Shown here: positions 8,798-51,323 of the stretch, in pieces
How positions within the stretch are numbered: position 1 is the first letter of the stretch
Layout: every line of letters begins with the position of its first letter
NCBI GenBank assembly: GCA_030148805.1
Contig: JASBSS010000011.1
Coordinates: 1 to 64,000, forward strand
DNA from: Thiogranum sp.
GTDB lineage: Bacteria; Pseudomonadota; Gammaproteobacteria; DSM-19610
Length of the DNA stretch: 64,000 nucleotides
Reading direction: 5' to 3'
The notes under the pieces: model-generated
The model's database searches: none
The model's input: the letters and a program-made list of their open reading frames with translations, nothing else
What the model was told of the DNA's origin: nothing
Position numbers and translations under genes: made by a program

Positions 8798-9607
8798 ATG
8801 GATGCTCCCGTACACGGCCCGGACGCCCTCGAGGGGCGAGCGCAGGATGCGCCGGCCGGCCAGGAACTTTCGTTCAGGATTCTGTCCCTGAACACACACA
8901 AGGGCTTCACGGTCTTCAACCGGCGCTTCGTGCTGCACGAACTGCGCGAGGCGGTGCGCGGCGTGGGCGCCGACATCGTCTTCCTGCAGGAAGTGATCGG
9001 CTCGCACCAGGAGCATTCGACCCGCTACGAGAACTGGCCGGCGGTATCGCAGTACGAGTTCCTGGCCGACACCATCTGGAAGGACTTCGCCTACGGGCGC
9101 AACGCGGTCTACCCCGGCGGCGACCACGGCAACGCCCTGCTGTCCAAGTTTCCCATCCTGAGCTACCGCAATCTGGATGTCTCGCAGCGCGGGCCCGAGC
9201 GGCGCGGCCTGCTGCATTGCGTGCTGAAGCACCCGGGCTCGGGCAAGGAGATCCACGCCATCTGCGTGCACTTGGGACTGCGCGAGTCGCACCGCCGCGA
9301 GCAGCTGCGCCTGATGTGCCGCCTGATCGACGAACTGCCGCCCGACGCGCCCTTGGTGGTGGCGGGCGACTTCAATGACTGGCGCCAGCGCGCGCATGAG
9401 CTGCTGCACCAGTGCTCCAGCCTGCGGGAAGTCTTCATCGAGGCCATGGGGCGCGCGGCGCGCAGCTTCCCGGTGCGCTGGCCGCTGCTGTCGCTGGACC
9501 GCATCTACGTGCGCAACGTCCGCGTGCGCGGACCCGAGGTGCTGCACCAGAAGCCCTGGTCGCACCTGTCCGATCACGCCGCGCTGATCGCGGAGATCCA
9601 GGTATGA
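8798..9607 (+). CDS. ybhP: Endonuclease/exonuclease/phosphatase-family protein (YbhP-like)
   Basis: This is a member of the Mg-dependent EEP fold, 269 residues, with the expected residues in order: Asn32 (SLNTHKGF), Glu65 (FLQEV), His158 (VHLGL), Asp191 and Asn193 (GDFNDW), and Asp259-His260 (SDHAAL). The substrate of YbhP proteins is not established; the neighbours point to phospholipid metabolism rather than DNA repair. The ATG at 8798 follows GAGGGG. Its stop overlaps the next gene by four bases (ATGA), indicating translational coupling with the cardiolipin synthase. Confidence 0.88.
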   Translation: MDAPVHGPDALEGRAQDAPAGQELSFRILSLNTHKGFTVFNRRFVLHELREAVRGVGADIVFLQEVIGSHQEHSTRYENWPAVSQYEFLADTIWKDFAYGRNAVYPGGDHGNALLSKFPILSYRNLDVSQRGPERRGLLHCVLKHPGSGKEIHAICVHLGLRESHRREQLRLMCRLIDELPPDAPLVVAGDFNDWRQRAHELLHQCSSLREVFIEAMGRAARSFPVRWPLLSLDRIYVRNVRVRGPEVLHQKPWSHLSDHAALIAEIQV

Positions 9608-10842
9608 CCATCGAACGTTGGCGCGAGGGCAACAGCTTGCGATTGCTGGAGAACGGCGAGGAGTTCTTTCCCCGCGTGTTCGAGGCGATCCGAGCGGCAC
9701 GCAGCGAGGTGCTGGTCGAGACCTTCATCCTGTTCGACGATCCTGTCGGGCGCCAGCTGCGCGAGGCGCTGATCGCCGCCGCCACCGGCGGCGCACGGGT
9801 CGAGATTCTGATGGACCACTATGGCTCGCCGGACCTGTCCGACGAATTCATCGGCGGCATGACGGCCGTCGGTGTGAAGGTCCACTTCTTCGACGTGCAA
9901 CCCAAGCTGCTGGGCTACTTCCGGGTCAATCCGTTGCGCCGCCTGCATCGCAAGCTGGTGGTGGTCGATCGCACGATCGGCTTCATCGGCGGCATCAACT
10001 ACTCCTACGACCACCTGCGCGAGTACGGCCCCGAGGGCAAGCAGGACTACTCGGTGGAAGTGATGGGGCCGGTGGTGGAGGACATGCGCGAACTGATGGA
10101 GGAGGCGCTGCAGTCGCCGGATCGCCAGTCGCGCCGCCGCCGTTTCTGGTGGCGCAGCCCCGCGCTGAAGACCTTTCCGCCGGGCACGGGCAAGGCCCGG
10201 GCGCTGCTGGTGGTGCGCGACAACCAGGAGCACCGCGACGATATCGAGCGCTACTACCGCTCTGCGATCCGCAGCGCGCAGCGCGAGGTGATCATCGCCA
10301 ATGCCTACTTCTTCCCCGGCGTGCGCCTGCTGCGCGAGATGCGCGCCGCCGCCCGGCGCGGGGTGCGCTTCGTGCTGATCCTGCAGGGCGCGCCCGACAA
10401 GGCGATCATGCGTTGGGCCGCGGTGACGCTCTACGACTACCTGCTGCGCTCCGGCGCGGTGATCTACGAATACTGCGAGCGCCCGCTGCACGGCAAGGTC
10501 GCGGTGATCGACGACGACTGGGCCACGGTGGGCTCCAGCAACCTCGACCCGCTGAGCCTGGCGCTGAACTTGGAAGCCAACCTGCTGATCCGCGACCGCG
10601 ACTTCGCCGGCTATCTGCGGGAGCGCTTGCAGCACCTGATGGATAACTGCTGCCGCGAGGTGCCGCCGCCGCCCACGCCCAAGCCGCGCTGGTGGAGCCA
10701 GGCCTCGGCCTACCTGGTGTTCCGCCTGCTGCGCCGCTTCCCGCGCTGGGTGGAGGCCCTGCCGCAGCATCGGCCCAAGATCTCCGCAGCGGAGATCGGG
10801 GCGGAGCGCCACGGGGTACAGCCCCAGCGCGACGCCGCTTAA
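9604..10842 (+). CDS. clsB: Cardiolipin synthase B (phospholipase D family)
   Basis: This enzyme makes cardiolipin at the inner membrane by phosphatidyl transfer. It has two HKD motifs: HRKLVVVD (His115, Lys117, Asp122) and HGKVAVID (His296, Lys298, Asp303), each followed by the expected GG/SS-N segment (FIGGIN and GSSNLD). There are no N-terminal membrane helices, which matches ClsB rather than ClsA, and 412 residues is the ClsB length. It overlaps the YbhP-like gene by ATGA. The C-terminal tail is Pro/Trp/Arg-rich and probably membrane-associating. Confidence 0.92.
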   Translation: MTIERWREGNSLRLLENGEEFFPRVFEAIRAARSEVLVETFILFDDPVGRQLREALIAAATGGARVEILMDHYGSPDLSDEFIGGMTAVGVKVHFFDVQPKLLGYFRVNPLRRLHRKLVVVDRTIGFIGGINYSYDHLREYGPEGKQDYSVEVMGPVVEDMRELMEEALQSPDRQSRRRRFWWRSPALKTFPPGTGKARALLVVRDNQEHRDDIERYYRSAIRSAQREVIIANAYFFPGVRLLREMRAAARRGVRFVLILQGAPDKAIMRWAAVTLYDYLLRSGAVIYEYCERPLHGKVAVIDDDWATVGSSNLDPLSLALNLEANLLIRDRDFAGYLRERLQHLMDNCCREVPPPPTPKPRWWSQASAYLVFRLLRRFPRWVEALPQHRPKISAAEIGAERHGVQPQRDAA

Positions 10843-10916
10843 GGACCCTGTCGCTGGCCTTGAGTGGCGTAGGCGGTTAGGCTTACCGCTCCGCACCCCT
10901 GAAAAGCGCCTGACGC

Positions 10917-12167
10917 ATGAACCCCAGCGCCATCGAGGTCGCCGCGGCGATCATCTTCGCCGTCGCCCTGCTGCACACCTTCACCGCCAAGCTGTTCGAG
11001 CGCCTGGCCCACCATCATCCGCGCCACTCCGGCCTGCTGCACCTGCTGGGCGAGGTGGAGATCGTGTTCGGCTTCTGGGCCGCAGTGCTGATCGTGGTCA
11101 TGGCTATGATGGTCGGGGGCGGCGAGGCGGTGAGCTATGCCGAATCGCGGCATTACACCGAGCCCCTGTTCGTGTTTGCCGTGATGGTGGTGGCGGCCTC
11201 GCGCCCGGTGCTGGAATCCGTGCGGCGGCTGGTGGCCGCCGTGGCGCGAGTACTGCCGCTGCCCACGCGCCTGGCCCAGGTCTGGCTCAGTCTTTCACTG
11301 GTGCCGCTGCTGGGCTCGCTGATCACCGAGCCGGCGGCCATGACGCTGGCGGCGCTGATGCTGATGCGCACGCTGTTCGAGACGCCGCTGCCGGAACGGC
11401 TCAAGTACGCGGCACTCGGCGTGTTGTTCGTCAACATCTCCATCGGCGGCACGCTCAGCTCCTTCGCCGCGCCGCCGGTGCTGATGGTGGCGGCCACCTG
11501 GGGCTGGGACTCGATGTTCATGCTGACCCATTTCGGCTGGCGCGCCGCCTGCGCGGTGCTGATCAATGCCACGGTGCTGTGCTGGTTCATGCGTGGGCAC
11601 CTGGGTGGCGAGATCCAGGAGCCGGAGGAGCGCGAGCCGGTGCCGCTGCTGGTGACGCTGATCCATTTCGCCTTCCTGGCCGGCGTGGTGGTCTTCGCGC
11701 ATCACCCGGTGATCTTCCTGGGGCTGTTCCTGTTCTTCCTCGGTTACACCCAGGCCTACAACAAGCACCAGAATCCGCTGATCCTGAAGGAGGCCCTGCT
11801 GGTGGGCTTCTTCCTGGCCGGCCTGGTGGTGCTGGGCGGCATGCAGCAATGGTGGCTGCAGCCGATCATCTCGGGGCTTTCGCCACTGGCGCTGTTCTTC
11901 GGCGCCACCGCGCTGACGGCGATCACGGACAACGCCGCGCTGACCTACCTGGGCTCGCTGATCACGGGCATTTCGGACGAGGCCAAGTACATGCTGGTGG
12001 CGGGCGCGGTGACCGGCGGCGGCCTCACGGTGATCGCCAATGCGCCGAACCCGGCCGGCGTGGCGCTGCTCAAGGGCGGCTTCCGTGACGCGTCCATCGG
12101 TGCCGGCGGCCTGCTGCTGGGCGCGCTGCCGCCGACGCTGGTGTCGCTGGTGTTCTTCCTGCTTTGA
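10917..12167 (+). CDS. Putative Na+/H+ antiporter (Na_H_antiport_3 type)
   Basis: This is a polytopic membrane protein of 416 residues with about eleven hydrophobic segments. It resembles the putative Na+/H+ antiporter family PF07399; markers are SLITEPAAMTLAALML, GGTLSSFAAPPVLMVA and ITDNAALTYLGSL, the last like the TDNAAL segment of ion-transporter-superfamily antiporters. A His-rich stretch (HHHPRH) lies in the first cytoplasmic loop. The ion specificity is a family-level guess. It is preceded by 74 bases after clsB with no terminator seen, so read-through is possible. Confidence 0.82.
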   Translation: MNPSAIEVAAAIIFAVALLHTFTAKLFERLAHHHPRHSGLLHLLGEVEIVFGFWAAVLIVVMAMMVGGGEAVSYAESRHYTEPLFVFAVMVVAASRPVLESVRRLVAAVARVLPLPTRLAQVWLSLSLVPLLGSLITEPAAMTLAALMLMRTLFETPLPERLKYAALGVLFVNISIGGTLSSFAAPPVLMVAATWGWDSMFMLTHFGWRAACAVLINATVLCWFMRGHLGGEIQEPEEREPVPLLVTLIHFAFLAGVVVFAHHPVIFLGLFLFFLGYTQAYNKHQNPLILKEALLVGFFLAGLVVLGGMQQWWLQPIISGLSPLALFFGATALTAITDNAALTYLGSLITGISDEAKYMLVAGAVTGGGLTVIANAPNPAGVALLKGGFRDASIGAGGLLLGALPPTLVSLVFFLL

Positions 12168-45719: not shown

Positions 45720-46421
45720 TTAGCGACGTCTGCGAATGACACCCGCCAAACCGACCAGCCCGGAACCGAACAACCAGACGGCCGCCGGCACCGGTACCAC
45801 CGCGGTGTTATAGGTGCCCACGAAGGACGGCACGGCGCTGCAGGGACCGGCGCTGTCATCGCAATACCCGTTGCCCACCATCAGGCGGATGCTGTTGAAG
45901 GCGCTCCCGCTGAGACCGGAGAAGGTGGACAGATCGATACCCAGGGCGATGATCGGATCGCCGGGATAGGTGGGGTTGCCGGGATCCTCGGGATAGGCGG
46001 GATCGAAGAAGCCGGTGGCGTTGGCGCCGGGACCCAGGGTATAGGTCTGGGTCACGCCGCCGATGGTGACGTCCACCTTGTGACCGTTGTTGCCGACGAA
46101 AAACAGCTTCAGATCGTTGCCGACACCATCGACGACCGACATGTCGAAGCCCAGATCGATCCAGGCGCCGTCGCTGGCACCGACGATATTGCTGCCGGCG
46201 CTGGTGTCGGTGATACGCGCATTGATGTCCGAGCTATTGGTCGACCAGTTGGGCCCCGAGGTCGAATTGCCCAGATCGGTCAGGAAACTGCCGTTCTTGC
46301 CCACCACGCTGTTGGCATAACCGGCAAAGGTCTCGCCGGTGACCGATTCGGTCACCGACGCGGCCAACCCCTGTTGGGAAAACAGGCCCAGGGCCAGGAA
46401 AACCGTAACGAGTTTTTTCAT
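45720..46421 (-). CDS. VPLPA-CTERM (PEP-CTERM-type) sorted exported protein
   Basis: A 233-residue exported protein. The signal peptide is 1-20 (FLALGLFSQQGLAA), and the C-terminus is a sorting tag with VPVPAAVWLFGSGLVGLAG followed by an Arg cluster (IRRRR), the signature of exosortase substrates of the VPLPA-CTERM class. The middle part is Gly/Asn/Thr-rich and beta-like with no catalytic motif seen. Exosortase and its partners are not in this window. An AGAGA site precedes the ATG. It lies 54 bases after the upstream Pro-rich gene and probably shares its promoter. Confidence 0.86.
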   Translation of the reverse strand: MKKLVTVFLALGLFSQQGLAASVTESVTGETFAGYANSVVGKNGSFLTDLGNSTSGPNWSTNSSDINARITDTSAGSNIVGASDGAWIDLGFDMSVVDGVGNDLKLFFVGNNGHKVDVTIGGVTQTYTLGPGANATGFFDPAYPEDPGNPTYPGDPIIALGIDLSTFSGLSGSAFNSIRLMVGNGYCDDSAGPCSAVPSFVGTYNTAVVPVPAAVWLFGSGLVGLAGVIRRRR

Positions 46422-46475
46422 TTTGATCTCTCTCCAAATCCTACTACGCAAAATTGTTCAGGCCTGTGCCGACCC

Positions 46476-46823
46476 TTACAGCGGTGGTAACCGATCCCGC
46501 GGATCGTCCGTGACCTGCTGCGGCGGCGGTGGCGGCAACCGGTCTCTCGGATCGTCCGTGGGCGGCGGCGGCGGCGGCGACGGTGGCTGCAGCGTGACAT
46601 CGGGGCAGAATCCGGCGTCACAGGGCAGCGGATTGTACTGCGTGCCGGGCATATTCGCCACGACAAAAGGCTCGTTGCCACCGGCAGCCGGGCTGAGTAC
46701 CGCCCAGCGCCCCCAACGATAGACCGAGTCTCCTTCCTGCGGCTGCGCCGCCTGCGCCCCTTGGACCAGCGTGAGCCCGAGGCCCGCGGCCATCAGCGTC
46801 GTCCGAATGATTGCCTGTTTCAT
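46476..46823 (-). CDS. Exported Pro-rich protein with DPRDRLPP repeats
   Basis: I do not recognise this 115-residue protein. It has a signal peptide (1-25, AAGLGLTLVQGAQAA) and a short region with two Cys (DAGFCP and NPLPCD). The Pro-rich C-terminus repeats TDDPRDRLPP twice and ends in LPPL. The repeat is encoded by near-identical DNA. It is preceded by a sigma-54-type promoter and followed by the VPLPA-CTERM gene, so an extracellular matrix or surface role is plausible. Confidence 0.65.
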   Translation of the reverse strand: MKQAIIRTTLMAAGLGLTLVQGAQAAQPQEGDSVYRWGRWAVLSPAAGGNEPFVVANMPGTQYNPLPCDAGFCPDVTLQPPSPPPPPPTDDPRDRLPPPPPQQVTDDPRDRLPPL

Positions 46824-47192: not shown

Positions 47193-48488
47193 TCAGAAAT
47201 CCCGCGACAGCATCAGCATGATCTGATTCCGACCGTAACTGTAAAGCTGGCCGATGTTGGAATCGTTGTGCGTGCCTTCCCAGAACAGGTTCGCCACCCA
47301 GCCCTTGAGCAGGTCATCGGGCTGGCGGAAGTCATGGGTCAGCCCCACCGTTCCCACATACTCCTTCTCCCGCCGCGGCTTGAGGAAGACCGGGTCGTCG
47401 CCGTCGTAGTCATAATAGGTGAAGCGGCCGCGCACGTAGGCCGAACCGTTCTTGTAGGTGCGGGTGCTCACCCCGGCGCTCAGCTGACCGCCGGTGTAAG
47501 CGAATTGATCGGCATCGGCGAAAAACCGGATCCCGCGCACGCCCAGCGTGGTGGTGATGCGGCGATTGTTGAAATACTGGCCCAGATTAAGACCCGTGGC
47601 GACATAATCGCCTTCGCGCCCGGAATCTCGGTCGCGGTAATAGGTACGCCGCGTGTAGATCGTATCCCAGTTCAACTCGCCGTTGTTGAATTGCCAGGTG
47701 ACGGAGGGATTGACCGAATGGAACCAGCCCAGCGCGCGAGCGCCCAGGTCGAGGAATTCCGAGCGCAACTGCAACGAGGCGCGCCAGTGGCGCAACAACA
47801 ACACCGCCGGTCCGGTGTTGACGCTGGCGACCAACAAATCGTAATCGTTGAAATCGTGATAGCGGCGCCAGTAGAGATTGGCCCCGCTCTGCCACACCAG
47901 CATGCCGGTACGCTGCCCCAGCTCCACCCGACGGCCGGATTGGTACAGGTGGTCCACCCCGACCGTACCCACGGCCGCGTTGCCGGAGCGTTTCAGCGCC
48001 GAAGCCGGTAGCGGGGTGATATCGAAGCGGATCTGCGCATCGGTGGGACCGATGTTGACGTTGGAATCGTGCATGACGCCGATGGACAGATGCGGCGTCA
48101 CTTCGTGCTTCTGACCATAACGCTCGGAATCCCGTTTCACCTGGGCCAGGAACGCCAGCACCGTTACCCGTACCTCTGGGGGCGTCTGCGGATCGTCCAG
48201 TACCTCCTGCGCGAGACGCTCGGCCTCCTGGTAGCGCAGCGTACGGTAGTAAGACAACGCCAGTTCCAACTTGGCGCGATCGAGACTGGTATCGCGGGTG
48301 AGAATGGCGCGGAATGCTTCAATTGCGGTTTTGTAGCGCTCCTGCTCCAACGCCTCCATGCCCTGCTTGAACTGCGCCTCGAGATCCGGATTCTCTCCGG
48401 CGGCGGCAAACACGGGCCGCGCGAAACCCGCCGCCGTGCACAGGAGTAGACTCATCCACAGGCTGCGATTTCTTAATACTTGATCCAT
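47193..48488 (-). CDS. DUF560 outer-membrane protein with TPR (Slam-like)
   Basis: A 431-residue outer-membrane protein. After the signal (1-29) two or three TPR-like helices (about 35-110, FKQGMEALEQERYKTAIEAF) are followed by a beta-barrel (about 140-431) ending in Phe (MLMLSRDF), as in outer-membrane barrels. The family PF04575 includes Slam proteins, which move surface lipoproteins or haem-binding proteins across the outer membrane. Its cargo is not evident; small exported proteins lie next to it. The ATG at 48488 follows GGGGAA. It is divergent from the LapG-like gene. Confidence 0.8.
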   Translation of the reverse strand: MDQVLRNRSLWMSLLLCTAAGFARPVFAAAGENPDLEAQFKQGMEALEQERYKTAIEAFRAILTRDTSLDRAKLELALSYYRTLRYQEAERLAQEVLDDPQTPPEVRVTVLAFLAQVKRDSERYGQKHEVTPHLSIGVMHDSNVNIGPTDAQIRFDITPLPASALKRSGNAAVGTVGVDHLYQSGRRVELGQRTGMLVWQSGANLYWRRYHDFNDYDLLVASVNTGPAVLLLRHWRASLQLRSEFLDLGARALGWFHSVNPSVTWQFNNGELNWDTIYTRRTYYRDRDSGREGDYVATGLNLGQYFNNRRITTTLGVRGIRFFADADQFAYTGGQLSAGVSTRTYKNGSAYVRGRFTYYDYDGDDPVFLKPRREKEYVGTVGLTHDFRQPDDLLKGWVANLFWEGTHNDSNIGQLYSYGRNQIMLMLSRDF

Positions 48489-48588
48489 GGCCGTTCCCCG
48501 TTTATTGTAAAACCGCTTATACATACAATAGTTTATATCATCAGGTTCAGAATTCGGCGATAGTAAATAACTTAACCGATAAACACAA

Positions 48589-49242
48589 TTGGCCAAATTC
48601 CCTATATCAACCCCGCTGTGGGCGCTTATCGGCAGCCTCTGCTTGTTATTCAGCACCAGTGCGAGCGCACGGCTGTTCCCGCCCACGCTGTTTGGCTACA
48701 ACGCCGTCGAGCAACCCGACACTCAAACTTTCGGCCAATGGATTCAAGTACTTGAGCGGCACCTGCGATTGGACGTCCCGGAAGGCGACTGCCAGGAGAA
48801 GACGCTAAATCAGTGTCATTTGCGCGCCTGGCTGGCGTTTCTGGCCGGCTTGCGCGGGCTGCCGCCGGCCGAACAGCTCGAAGCCGTCAACCGCTACGCC
48901 AACCGCAAACCCTATGTCCTGGATATCGAGAATTACGGCGTCGAGGACTATTGGGCGGTGCCGCGCGAATTTCTCTACAACAACGGCGACTGCGAAGACT
49001 ATGCGATCACCAAGTTCTTCTCGCTGCGCTGGCTGGGCTTTCCCATGGACGATTTGCGTATCGTGGTCCTGCAGGATACCAATTTGCGCATCCCGCACGC
49101 GGTACTGGCGGTGGCGGCCAACAATGACGTGAAAATACTCGACAACCAGATACAGGAAGTCGTCTCGCAGGCCAATATCGTGCATTATGCGCCCGTGTAC
49201 GCCATAAACGAGCACCACTGGTGGCTTTACCTGCCCGACTGA
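48589..49242 (+). CDS. LapG-type periplasmic cysteine protease (BTLCP)
   Basis: This transglutaminase-like cysteine peptidase has 217 residues and a signal peptide (about 1-27). The catalytic triad is Cys135 (NNGDCEDYAI), His170 (IPHAVLAV) and Asp185 (ILDNQ), the same spacing as LapG, and the acidic residues next to Cys135 (Asp134, Glu136, Asp137) match LapG's calcium-binding set. LapG cleaves large adhesins at the cell surface when cyclic di-GMP falls. The start is a TTG at 48589; no ATG fits the signal peptide. A membrane sensor gene follows after two bases, so the two are one operon. Confidence 0.88.
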   Translation: MAKFPISTPLWALIGSLCLLFSTSASARLFPPTLFGYNAVEQPDTQTFGQWIQVLERHLRLDVPEGDCQEKTLNQCHLRAWLAFLAGLRGLPPAEQLEAVNRYANRKPYVLDIENYGVEDYWAVPREFLYNNGDCEDYAITKFFSLRWLGFPMDDLRIVVLQDTNLRIPHAVLAVAANNDVKILDNQIQEVVSQANIVHYAPVYAINEHHWWLYLPD

Positions 49243-49244
49243 CC

Positions 49245-51323
49245 ATGCCGGCATCCGACTCCGCTTCCGCCCGCAAACCGATTCTCGGTGGACTGCTTGC
49301 GCTGGCGCTGCTGGTCCTGGTCGGCGCCTATCTGATCTACGTCTACGTCAACAACGAGCGACAACGCGATCTCGACAACTGGGCGATTCGTCTCGGTCTG
49401 GTGGCCGAAACCCGGGTCAATGCCATCGAACACTGGTTCGACGGCCGCGTCTCGGCGCTGAACGAACTGGCCAACAATGCCTCGTTGCAACTCTATCTCT
49501 GGCAACTGAGCCAGCGCAGCGAGCCCGATCGTAGCACCGAACCGGCGCAGCTGAGTTATCTGCGCAATCTGGTGCTGGCCAGCGCCAGTCGCAATGGGTT
49601 TCTGCCGGAAACGCAACAACCTGAGATTCCAGCCAATCTGCCGCAACGCTACGACGCCGGACTCGCGCTGCTGGACGCCAAGGGGCGTCATGTGGTTTCC
49701 ACCAACGGCATGCCGGAGATCGGCGCGGCCTTTCACGCGGCGATCAACAGCGCCCTCGAGACCGGCCAGGCCGCCATCAGTCCCCTGGTGACCGACGCGC
49801 ACGAGCGCGTCCTGCTGGGTATCGCGGTGCCGGTACCGAGGGTCATAGGTTCGCAGGCCGCGGATGCCTACAACGGCGTGGTATTCGCGGTGATGAATGC
49901 CCAACGCTCGCTCTATCCGCTGCTCCAGGCCGGCGTTCCGACGCTGGCCAGTGAAGTCACGCTGTTGGTGATGCAGGCTGACCGGCAAGTCGTCTACCTG
50001 TCGCCGACCGCCGACGGCGGCGTCCCGACCCGCAAGACGCTGCCCATGGATCGCGATCGACTGGCGGCGGCCGCGGCGCTGCGCCAGCCCGGAGGGTTCG
50101 GAGAATATCTCAGTTATCAAGGTCACGCAGTGCTCGCGACCAGCCGCCGACTGCGCACCACCCCCTGGCTGGTATTACAGGAGGTGGACGCCCGCCAGGC
50201 GTTGCTGGAGTCCGACCGCCACCGGCGGTTTCTCGTCACCACCTTCTCACTGGTCCTGTTCTTCTTCGCCGCGATATTGATCGCCGCCTGGCGCCACGGC
50301 AGCAGCGTGCGTGCGCGCCACGACGCCGAGCGCCTGCGCCAGCAGACCCTGGAGCTGGAAAAACAGACCGAACTGCTACACGCGGTTACCGACAACGCCG
50401 ACGCCTACGTGCTGTTGCTGGACGCGCAGCAACGGGTGCTGTTCGCCAATGCCCCGCTGGCGGAAAAGCTGCATGCCAGCACCCAGGACCTGGTCGGCAA
50501 TTCGCTGGCGGGCGTACTGGGTCCGGCGAACGTAGAACCGCTGAGCGCCGCGCTCGCCGACATGGACACCGATCCCGGGATCCGGCGTTGCGGCGTGACC
50601 ATGGCGATAGGAGCACAAACCCGCAGTCTGCAGTGCTCCCTGGTACCGGTCGATCGGATCGGCGAGCGCTACCACGCCGTTCTCCTGGTGCTGCACGACA
50701 CTACCGAACTGGAGCAGGCCCAGCACCGGCACGCGACGCTGATGCGCAAACTGGTCGACACCCTGATGCACGTGGTCGACCTGCACGATCCCAACTCGGC
50801 CCATCATTCCGCGCGCGTGGTGGAAGTGGCCAACGCCGTGGGTCGCGAGTTGCGTCTCGGTGAGAGCGACCGGCGCACCCTCGATCTGGCGGCCAGTCTG
50901 GCCAATCTGGGCAAGATATTCGTGCCCCGCGAGGTGCTGACCAAGAGCGCGCCGCTGACCGAGGCCGAACAGGCGCTGGTGCAGCGCCACGTCCTGTTCG
51001 GCACCGAGTTGCTGGCCGACCTGGAGTTCGAGGGGCCGGTGGTGGACACCATCGCCCAAAAGCACGAGCACCCCGACGGCAGCGGCTATCCCCAGGGTCT
51101 GCGCGACGGCGAGATTCTGCTGACCGCGCGGATTCTCGCGGTCAGCAACGCCTTTGTCGCGCTGCTCAGTCCGCGCGCCTACCGCGGCCCCGTCGGCATG
51201 CACGAAGCACTGGAACAGCTGTTGCGAGAAACCCCCGACAAATACGACCGCCAGGTGGTGGCCGCCCTGTTCCACGTCGCGGAGAACCGCGCGGACTGGT
51301 CGGAGTGGTTAGGGCAGGACTAA
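49245..51323 (+). CDS. Membrane sensor with PAS and degenerate HD-GYP domain
   Basis: A 692-residue sensor. Helices at 13-35 and 329-349 bracket a large periplasmic domain (36-328) of dCache-like type. A short coiled coil (355-378), a PAS domain (about 378-490) and an HD-GYP-like domain (about 500-680) follow. The HD pair is replaced by Ala553-Asn554 (LANLGK), the HHE is KHEH (606-609), and the usual D-x-x-D-A metal site reads SNAFVAL. The GYP motif itself remains (DGSGYP). Phosphodiesterase activity is therefore unlikely, but nucleotide binding is possible. The ATG at 49245 is preferred over a GTG at 49221 that overlaps the protease. Confidence 0.85.
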   Translation: MPASDSASARKPILGGLLALALLVLVGAYLIYVYVNNERQRDLDNWAIRLGLVAETRVNAIEHWFDGRVSALNELANNASLQLYLWQLSQRSEPDRSTEPAQLSYLRNLVLASASRNGFLPETQQPEIPANLPQRYDAGLALLDAKGRHVVSTNGMPEIGAAFHAAINSALETGQAAISPLVTDAHERVLLGIAVPVPRVIGSQAADAYNGVVFAVMNAQRSLYPLLQAGVPTLASEVTLLVMQADRQVVYLSPTADGGVPTRKTLPMDRDRLAAAAALRQPGGFGEYLSYQGHAVLATSRRLRTTPWLVLQEVDARQALLESDRHRRFLVTTFSLVLFFFAAILIAAWRHGSSVRARHDAERLRQQTLELEKQTELLHAVTDNADAYVLLLDAQQRVLFANAPLAEKLHASTQDLVGNSLAGVLGPANVEPLSAALADMDTDPGIRRCGVTMAIGAQTRSLQCSLVPVDRIGERYHAVLLVLHDTTELEQAQHRHATLMRKLVDTLMHVVDLHDPNSAHHSARVVEVANAVGRELRLGESDRRTLDLAASLANLGKIFVPREVLTKSAPLTEAEQALVQRHVLFGTELLADLEFEGPVVDTIAQKHEHPDGSGYPQGLRDGEILLTARILAVSNAFVALLSPRAYRGPVGMHEALEQLLRETPDKYDRQVVAALFHVAENRADWSEWLGQD

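Follow-up and report, generated by a model that had tools for sequence, protein, structure and literature searches.

A DvhDG-type protease and receptor pair in Thiogranum beside genes for a candidate Slam-like exporter and for a secreted protein with a putative LapG site

Introduction

A gene for the periplasmic protease LapG that is followed by a receptor gene of an unusual kind raises two questions: which protein controls the protease, and which protein does it cut? The locus considered here belongs to a member of the gammaproteobacterial genus Thiogranum and lies in a stretch of 64,000 nucleotides (positions 1 to 64,000 of the forward strand of contig JASBSS010000011.1, assembly GCA_030148805.1), which we call the window and whose numbering is used throughout. 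An earlier examination of the DNA letters, the sequence-only reading, had proposed that a membrane protein with a non-catalytic HD-GYP domain reads cyclic di-GMP (c-di-GMP) in the place of LapD, and that this would be a new inside-out switch for the release of a large adhesin. From sequence comparisons we conclude that the pair is a putative DvhDG-type switch and a new member of that family. We consider it probable that, taken as a whole, the locus couples such a switch to an exporter of surface proteins of the type-11-like (Slam) kind. The likely target of LapG, as judged from motif conservation, would be a neighbouring secreted protein carrying the motif PAAG, rather than a giant adhesin of a type I secretion system (T1SS).

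Results and Discussion

The lapG gene and its receptor gene

The pair and the domains and motifs of the receptor are as follows (TM, transmembrane segment).

48589..49242, + strand: lapG, encoding a LapG/DvhG-type periplasmic cysteine protease of 217 aa (Peptidase_C93 match, triad, tree grouping)
49245..51323, + strand: DvhD-like receptor of 692 aa, with TM, dCache, TM, PAS and degenerate HD-GYP (Pfam, alignment, Foldseek; TM by eye)
49401..50174, + strand: periplasmic dCache domain, residues about 53-310 (dCache_1 20.3 bits, cut-off 45; Foldseek 9rc2)
50391..50714, + strand: PAS domain, residues about 383-490 (PAS_4 44 bits, E 2.7e-11)
50760..51257, + strand: HD-GYP domain, residues about 506-671 (HD_5 126 bits, E 1.6e-36; DvhD 9rbz E 4e-41)
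50901..50906, + strand: AN (A553-N554), replacing the HD metal motif (sequence, alignment)
51060..51071, + strand: KHEH (K606-H607-E608...), replacing HHE (sequence, alignment)
51144..51164, + strand: SNAFVAL (634-640), replacing the second metal motif D.FDAL (sequence, alignment)

The identification of the protease and its Cys135-His170-Asp185 triad by the sequence-only reading was borne out. LapG scores 65.2 bits against Peptidase_C93 (cut-off 27) and is the sole match to this family in the source genome; the triad is invariant in all 15 aligned rows, the window included, and so is the acidic pair D134/E136 at the position of the calcium site. Against the equivalog NF045674, LapG scores 86.7 bits, which is under the curated cut-off of 320. 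The gene starts with TTG at 48589, and its product begins with what by eye resembles a signal peptide. The lapG stop codon ends at 49242 and the ATG of the receptor gene is at 49245, leaving the gap of two bases reported before. The description of the second protein as a membrane protein with a large periplasmic domain, PAS and HD-GYP likewise agrees with the HD_5 and PAS_4 matches. Its periplasmic domain was recognized as dCache by fold, through a match to the DvhD structure 9rc2 (Foldseek, TMt 0.71), the Pfam dCache_1 match being sub-threshold. The predicted receptor model has a predicted local distance difference test score (pLDDT) of 70.9 and a full-length predicted template modelling score (pTM) of 0.44, and because of the latter its domain arrangement was not relied on.

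All three motif changes in the HD-GYP domain are as the sequence-only reading gave them, with the qualification that the fixed change in the HH pair is limited to the first histidine (now K), the second position being H in the window and Q in most relatives. Residues A553, N554, K606, E608 and N635-L640 are invariant in the 14 aligned rows, including the window; the degeneracy is therefore fixed and a sequencing error is ruled out. The GYP motif is retained. In a wider set of DvhD-like proteins from Gammaproteobacteria and Betaproteobacteria, HDxG is absent from 27/27 distinct rows (28 are listed, but L060 repeats L037).

The pair resembles DvhD and DvhG of Desulfovibrio

Structures of DvhD/DvhG of Desulfovibrio with bound c-di-GMP have been published (PMC13090378, Nat Commun 2026). 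The passages of that paper that bear on our locus state that DvhD has a dCache periplasmic domain and binds c-di-GMP, with no hydrolysis, through an HD-GYP domain with SQ for HD; that control of the protease and cleavage at [T/A/P]AAG are known for this system; and that this scissile consensus is common to LapG and DvhG and is cut between the alanines. They also suggest an HD-GYP protein as the origin of DvhD, which would have taken the place of LapD after transfer. Since DvhD/DvhG of Desulfovibrio vulgaris has the same arrangement in print, the receptor swap is not novel, and the earlier claim of a new inside-out switch does not stand. The part of that claim that places a non-catalytic HD-GYP reader where LapD would be is well supported by homology, namely by the absence of LapD, the adjacency of the genes and the DvhD structures. 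Other Desulfovibrionales are discussed in the text of the same paper (PMC13090378), and the extension of DvhDG to Gammaproteobacteria may be partly known already.

The likeness to DVU1020/DVU1019 of Desulfovibrio (Nitratidesulfovibrio) vulgaris Hildenborough extends over several levels. Both loci have a BTLCP protease adjacent to a dCache-PAS-HD-GYP receptor, both receptors have lost HD (SQ versus AN) and the first HH residue (M versus K), and in both NAF stands where the second metal motif would be; their identity is about 39% in the HD-GYP domain and 18% in the periplasmic domain. The two proteases differ in that DvhG of Hildenborough is described with a TM anchor (PMC13090378, in the passage on this protein), whereas LapG of the window has the signal peptide-like start. 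In a sequence search of the PDB, the best matches of the receptor were DvhD entries 9rc0 (E 2.7e-44) and 9rbz (4e-41), the next match having 1e-22, and a Foldseek search with the predicted receptor gave DvhD chains at six of the first seven places (PAS/HD-GYP, HD-GYP and periplasmic domain).

In a tree of LapG sequences, 18 rows from Gammaproteobacteria and Betaproteobacteria and 14 Desulfovibrio-type rows, all DvhD-linked, separated from nine others with support 100/97, and LapG of the window grouped with Desulfovibrio DvhG. None of the nine is DvhD-linked: six have an adjacent LapD and three (L022, L024 and L042) do not, and the genome of L042 (G029) has no LapD anywhere according to the LapD search. 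A quick HD-GYP tree placed the DvhD group apart from canonical HD-GYPs (SH-aLRT 99), which, given its long branches, we use as supporting evidence only.

A scan of genome contigs found the nearest relatives of the pair in metagenome-assembled genomes (MAGs) of Thiogranum and Thiohalobacter; others occur in further gammaproteobacterial MAGs, one Rhodocyclaceae record and Desulfovibrio. LapG is present in 15/17 genomes of the genus and 16/20 of the family, and in all 16 of the latter a DvhD-like gene adjoins lapG. Among 40 loci with a DvhD-like gene, LapG is directly upstream in 32; three of the other eight (L057, L063 and L066) start at a contig start, and L070, L075, L079, L083 and L084 show none. 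The co-occurrence in relatives that the proposal called for thus exists. A canonical lapD-lapG pair elsewhere in the source genome was also looked for, and neither such a pair nor LapD was found there. In the 20 family genomes LapD_MoxY_N gave no match, and the same search was positive in 5/6 class-level LapG genomes. Pseudomonas fluorescens likewise has a periplasmic C93 protease (LapG) adjoining an inner-membrane reader (LapD), with the same consensus [T/A/P]AAG, but the window receptor has no LapD_MoxY_N, GGDEF or EAL domain. That Gammaproteobacteria and a Rhodocyclaceae record have this pair too, and that its LapG proteins form a separate group, points to protease and receptor having stayed together; this bears on the idea of DvhD origin and LapD replacement put forward in the published passages (PMC13090378).

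Two of these loci are worth describing. The Geminicoccaceae locus without LapG (L070) encodes a DvhD-like degenerate HD-GYP protein (9038-11251) that adjoins ORFs (open reading frames) resembling, by eye, the flagellar export genes fliR and flhB; it is possible that this is a related receptor with another output. In genome G004 (L039:9770-10183) the lapG ORF is 5'-truncated (137 aa) and lies beside a full-length receptor gene.

A putative Slam-like exporter gene and a secreted protein with a PAAG motif

The large adhesin named earlier as the target was not found near the pair. The neighbourhood contains instead, outside 48589-51323, a gene for a PAAG-bearing secreted protein, which we refer to as the cargo, and one for a putative exporter of the Slam-like kind; in Desulfovibrio, by contrast, there is a T1SS operon with the giant adhesin DvhA.

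48489..48588, no strand: intergenic stretch separating the divergent Slam-like gene and lapG (sequence reading, promoter scan)
47193..48488, - strand: Slam-like outer-membrane protein of 431 aa, with TPR helices 34-124 and 14 beta strands 128-430 (AlphaFold2 (AF2), Pfam)
46476..46823, - strand: proposed LapG substrate, a secreted 115-aa protein with WGRW, PAAG, a proline-rich tail and no barrel (cargo alignment)
46704..46715, - strand: WGRW, cargo residues 37-40 (sequence)
46680..46691, - strand: PAAG, matching the LapG scissile consensus [T/A/P]AAG, cargo residues 45-48 (invariant in 16/16 alignment rows)

The AF2 model of the Slam-like protein (pLDDT 83.3, pTM 0.73) has the architecture of TPR helices followed by a 14-strand barrel. 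Type 11 secretion (Slam/DUF560) with TbpB-barrel cargo is alike in having such an outer-membrane protein beside a secreted cargo, but the window proteins score under the Pfam cut-offs (TPR_Slam 27.9 bits, cut-off 35.2; SlipAM 20.2, cut-off 22) and the window cargo has no barrel. A scan of the divergent region gave no sigma-70 consensus match. The Slam-like gene is divergent from lapG in 15/16 non-Desulfovibrio LapG-DvhD loci, including L058, L059 and L061, whose receptors have an identity of 40-46%, and the cassette persists over a range that runs from Thiogranum to Rhodocyclaceae. Among the 56 nearest genomes, the Slam-like gene is strong in 15 of the 16 with LapG-DvhD and in one without LapG (G053), with weak matches in G027 and G055; the cargo occurs in 13 of the 56, all with LapG-DvhD. 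The search for the Slam-like gene gave no match in Desulfovibrio-type loci, many of which end at contig ends. In the single-contig genome G008 (L026:10660-11966) the Slam-like gene consists of two separate ORFs, through a frameshift either in the organism or in the assembly.

The alignment of 16 cargos, of which the complete ones measure 111 to 458 aa and three are cut by contig ends, contains nine invariant columns, and PAAG is the only run of four. Its P follows the W of a WG.W motif at a distance of eight or nine residues, and [TAP]AAG occurs exactly once in each of the 16; as background, the ORFs of these regions, some of them spurious, contain 41 occurrences in 100,386 residues. PAAG is present in 26/27 cargos of genomes with a DvhD-type pair. 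These comprise the 16 aligned cargos, two more from the genus (G011 and G002), eight from other genomes (all PAAG) and that of L199; L059 and L061 contribute two cargo paralogues each. In the proline-rich tail of the window cargo (46476-46823) there are two copies of DDPRDRLPP, a sequence that several other short cargos share. Profile search gave no cargo in G015, where transposase-like and ATPase-like ORFs, judged by eye, occupy the expected cargo position (L030:12212-14186).

The Slam profile is motif-free, and only the loci obtained with it were found without the motif in the query. In the class sample, 13 of the 14 genomes with a strong Slam match have LapG, and in 11 of these 13 the cargo has PAAG or TAAG, the exceptions being G384 (PLAG) and G177 (PEAG). 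In G053, which has a Slam-like gene and no LapG, there is WGPW without [TAP]AAG. Cargo-bearing genomes number 11/369 and all fall among the 70 LapG genomes (hypergeometric 6e-9, with kinship ignored; five families). The association is not confined to DvhD-type receptors: at two loci (L198 and L200) the Slam-like gene and a short WG.W protein accompany LapG and a canonical LapD with LapD_MoxY_N, GGDEF and EAL. The L198 cargo has WGHW, a charged helix-like stretch, DP and TAAG, a full Pseudomonas-type site.

Cargos that are not beside lapG served as controls. The control pool contained 14 Slam-profile hits (L204-L217) of 20 regions, from which L204, L206, L207, L213, L216 and L217 were left out because their Slam gene has no clear WG.W cargo next to it. 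The controls, 11 in all, were L151, L152, L153, L205, L208, L209, L210, L211, L212, L214 and L215, two of them from genomes with LapG elsewhere (L153 from G007, L208 from G075). All 11 keep WG.W and one has [TAP]AAG at that place, namely L209, with AAAG within 25 residues of one of four WG.W motifs. Counted by lineage, the motif is present in 8/10 LapG-linked cargos versus 1/11 controls (Fisher p = 0.0017, shared ancestry ignored); if L058 belongs with family f122, as it may, the first count becomes 7/9. A FecR domain scored over cut-off in the four controls scanned (L151, L205, L208 and L212), and a comparison of the control barrel segment with the cargo barrel gave an hhalign probability of 79%, L151 being left out of this profile comparison as too short after WG.W. 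In L151, L152, L153, L205, L208 and L212 a Slam-like TPR-barrel protein recurs together with a protein whose C-terminal domain carries WG.W, with CHASE2-like ORFs (by eye) near this pair in the first three; the Slam-like/WG.W (FecR) pair may represent a second kind of cargo for Slam-like exporters.

From sequence evidence, we infer that the Slam-like protein would export the cargo and that LapG would cut it at PAAG. Export is supported by the TbpB-type barrels in some long cargos (PF01298, the type-11 cargo hallmark, is over cut-off in 3 of the 12 scanned); the short cargo of the window does not support it. A number of observations weigh against this coupling. PF01298 is below cut-off in three of the 12 long cargos and absent in six, and the window cargo, at 115 aa, is too short for a barrel and matches 0 Pfam families. 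A comparison of control and cargo barrels by hmmsearch gave no match (best E 0.021). The motif is PLAG in the DvhD-linked L199 (G384), and the LapD-linked L200 (G177) keeps DP with PEAG. Unlike the P. fluorescens system, the window cargo has no DP motif, and on inspection no obvious targeting helix. The cargo and lapG are on separate contigs in G011, G117 and G267, the Slam gene is far from the pair in G140 (L203), and G004 has the pair without a Slam gene, unrelated genes lying on the far side of its lapG (L039) where the Slam-cargo cassette is expected. Moreover, the cargo profile contained the motif, so that cargo searches favour motif-bearing matches.

In another explanation, the TPR-barrel protein would be a BcsC/PelB-like channel for polysaccharides or solutes, and the PAAG protein would be a periplasmic accessory in which the motif has a structural role. 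The Foldseek matches of the window model are generic (OmpG and other porins, BcsC, PelBC), none of nine scanned LapG-linked Slam-like proteins passes the TPR_Slam or SlipAM cut-off, points that also tell against an exporter, and short cargos have no barrel. TPR_Slam is nevertheless the best Pfam match in 6/9 of these proteins (it ranks second in the window protein and third in the fragment from L026, and is absent in L199, where SlipAM scores 20.2 bits), and the homologue in G053 is over the SlipAM cut-off. PF01298 barrels in some long cargos and the near-absence of [TAP]AAG from related cargos away from lapG, which keep WG.W, also speak against a channel, which we regard as very unlikely.

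Search for a large T1SS adhesin

The ordinary DvhDG arrangement, in which LapG would release a large T1SS adhesin whose gene lies elsewhere and the Slam-like cassette would only happen to be nearby, accords with adhesin release as the role given to DvhG and LapG in the published passages (PMC13090378). With the source genome 95.87% complete and in 38 contigs, such an adhesin gene could also be missed. A search of the source genome for a large LapG-cleavable adhesin found no retention module or LapB-type exporter over cut-off. The LapA retention model NF033682 gave at best 13.6 bits (E 0.138; cut-off 50), with no match at E 0.001, and the LssB/LapB model TIGR03375 gave a best score of 323 versus a cut-off of 693. 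There is no T1SS or giant adhesin gene in the neighbourhood of the pair. NF033682 was over cut-off in 3/26 genomes, all three of which have LapD. Taken with the conservation of the cassette across families, these results make release of a T1SS adhesin quite unlikely here, although an adhesin unlike the LapA model could exist.

Two leads in the source genome were rejected. The weak retention match lies in a 2,140-aa ORF (contig C38, L110:7570-13992) encoding a repetitive passenger-like protein, the tail of which is PEP-CTERM-like, of the VPVPAAVWLF type. Two ABC-transporter neighbourhoods (L108 and L109) contain no large adhesin-like ORF.

Possible control by c-di-GMP

Whether release would depend on c-di-GMP turns on the nucleotide site of the receptor. 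Of the eight canonical c-di-GMP contacts of DvhD, the window receptor is identical at five (L571, Y615, R644, Y646 and E662). Y615, of the GYP motif, and R644 are present in 14/14 rows and Y646 in 13/14 (W in one), and the E662 position is D in 5/14. Elsewhere the site departs from that of DvhD: the window differs at the places of DvhD Y523, K582 and M646, and at the bridging site one contact of three is kept (P561), K520 and R569 being H and E. The five kept contacts are mostly general HD-GYP residues, and the residue pattern is thus compatible with c-di-GMP binding, no more. By analogy with DvhD, the window receptor would bind c-di-GMP.

Under the reading we favour, that of a switch coupled to a Slam-like exporter, the cargo (46476-46823, or its longer relatives) would be exported through the TPR-barrel protein (47193-48488) and held at the surface by its N-terminal part, the part that would be retained. 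When c-di-GMP is high, it would be bound by the degenerate HD-GYP domain of the receptor (49245-51323), and the receptor's periplasmic dCache domain would restrain LapG. When c-di-GMP drops, LapG would be freed and would cut the cargo between the PAAG alanines, releasing the exported part.

LapG might instead mature the cargo constitutively, as a processing step of export, with the HD-GYP-like protein relaying a periplasmic signal to LapG and no part for c-di-GMP. PAAG lies, by eye, some 20-40 residues past the likely end of the signal peptide, leaving little room for a retention domain, and several DvhD nucleotide contacts are lost. The strong conservation of the HD-GYP domain at Y615, R644 and Y646, on the other hand, suggests ligand binding, and the Desulfovibrio relative is a proven c-di-GMP receptor; we consider constitutive maturation unlikely.

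Significance of the Slam-linked cargo

We find it reasonably probable that LapG, under DvhD-type and sometimes LapD-type receptors, controls a third class of surface proteins, the cargos of Slam-like exporters with a conserved PAAG or TAAG. If so, c-di-GMP would gate shedding through a widespread system that has no connection with T1SS adhesins or CdrA. What looks new is this target, the exchange of GGDEF-EAL for HD-GYP in the receptor being already known in Desulfovibrio. A term search of the accessible text of two type-11 papers (PMC12282271, PMC8406197) gave no LapG, HD-GYP or c-di-GMP; spontaneous cleavage of the type-11 cargo Pls is discussed in one passage found by that search. A general review mentions LapG once and the type 11 secretion system three times in the text searched (PMC10778856). 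Among the matches listed in our literature searches none links LapG with type XI secretion, three with LapG and 'slam' being apparently unrelated from their titles, and no c-di-GMP-regulated release of type-11-like cargo was found in the literature searched. A LapG consensus fixed in a Slam-linked secreted protein offers a direct and inexpensive way to ask whether c-di-GMP controls the shedding of type-11-like surface proteins.

One further gene lies beside that of the cargo and is possibly outside the module; similar ORFs are present in several relatives.

45720..46451, - strand: PEP-CTERM-like secreted protein (PEP-CTERM 16.4 bits, cut-off 20.7)

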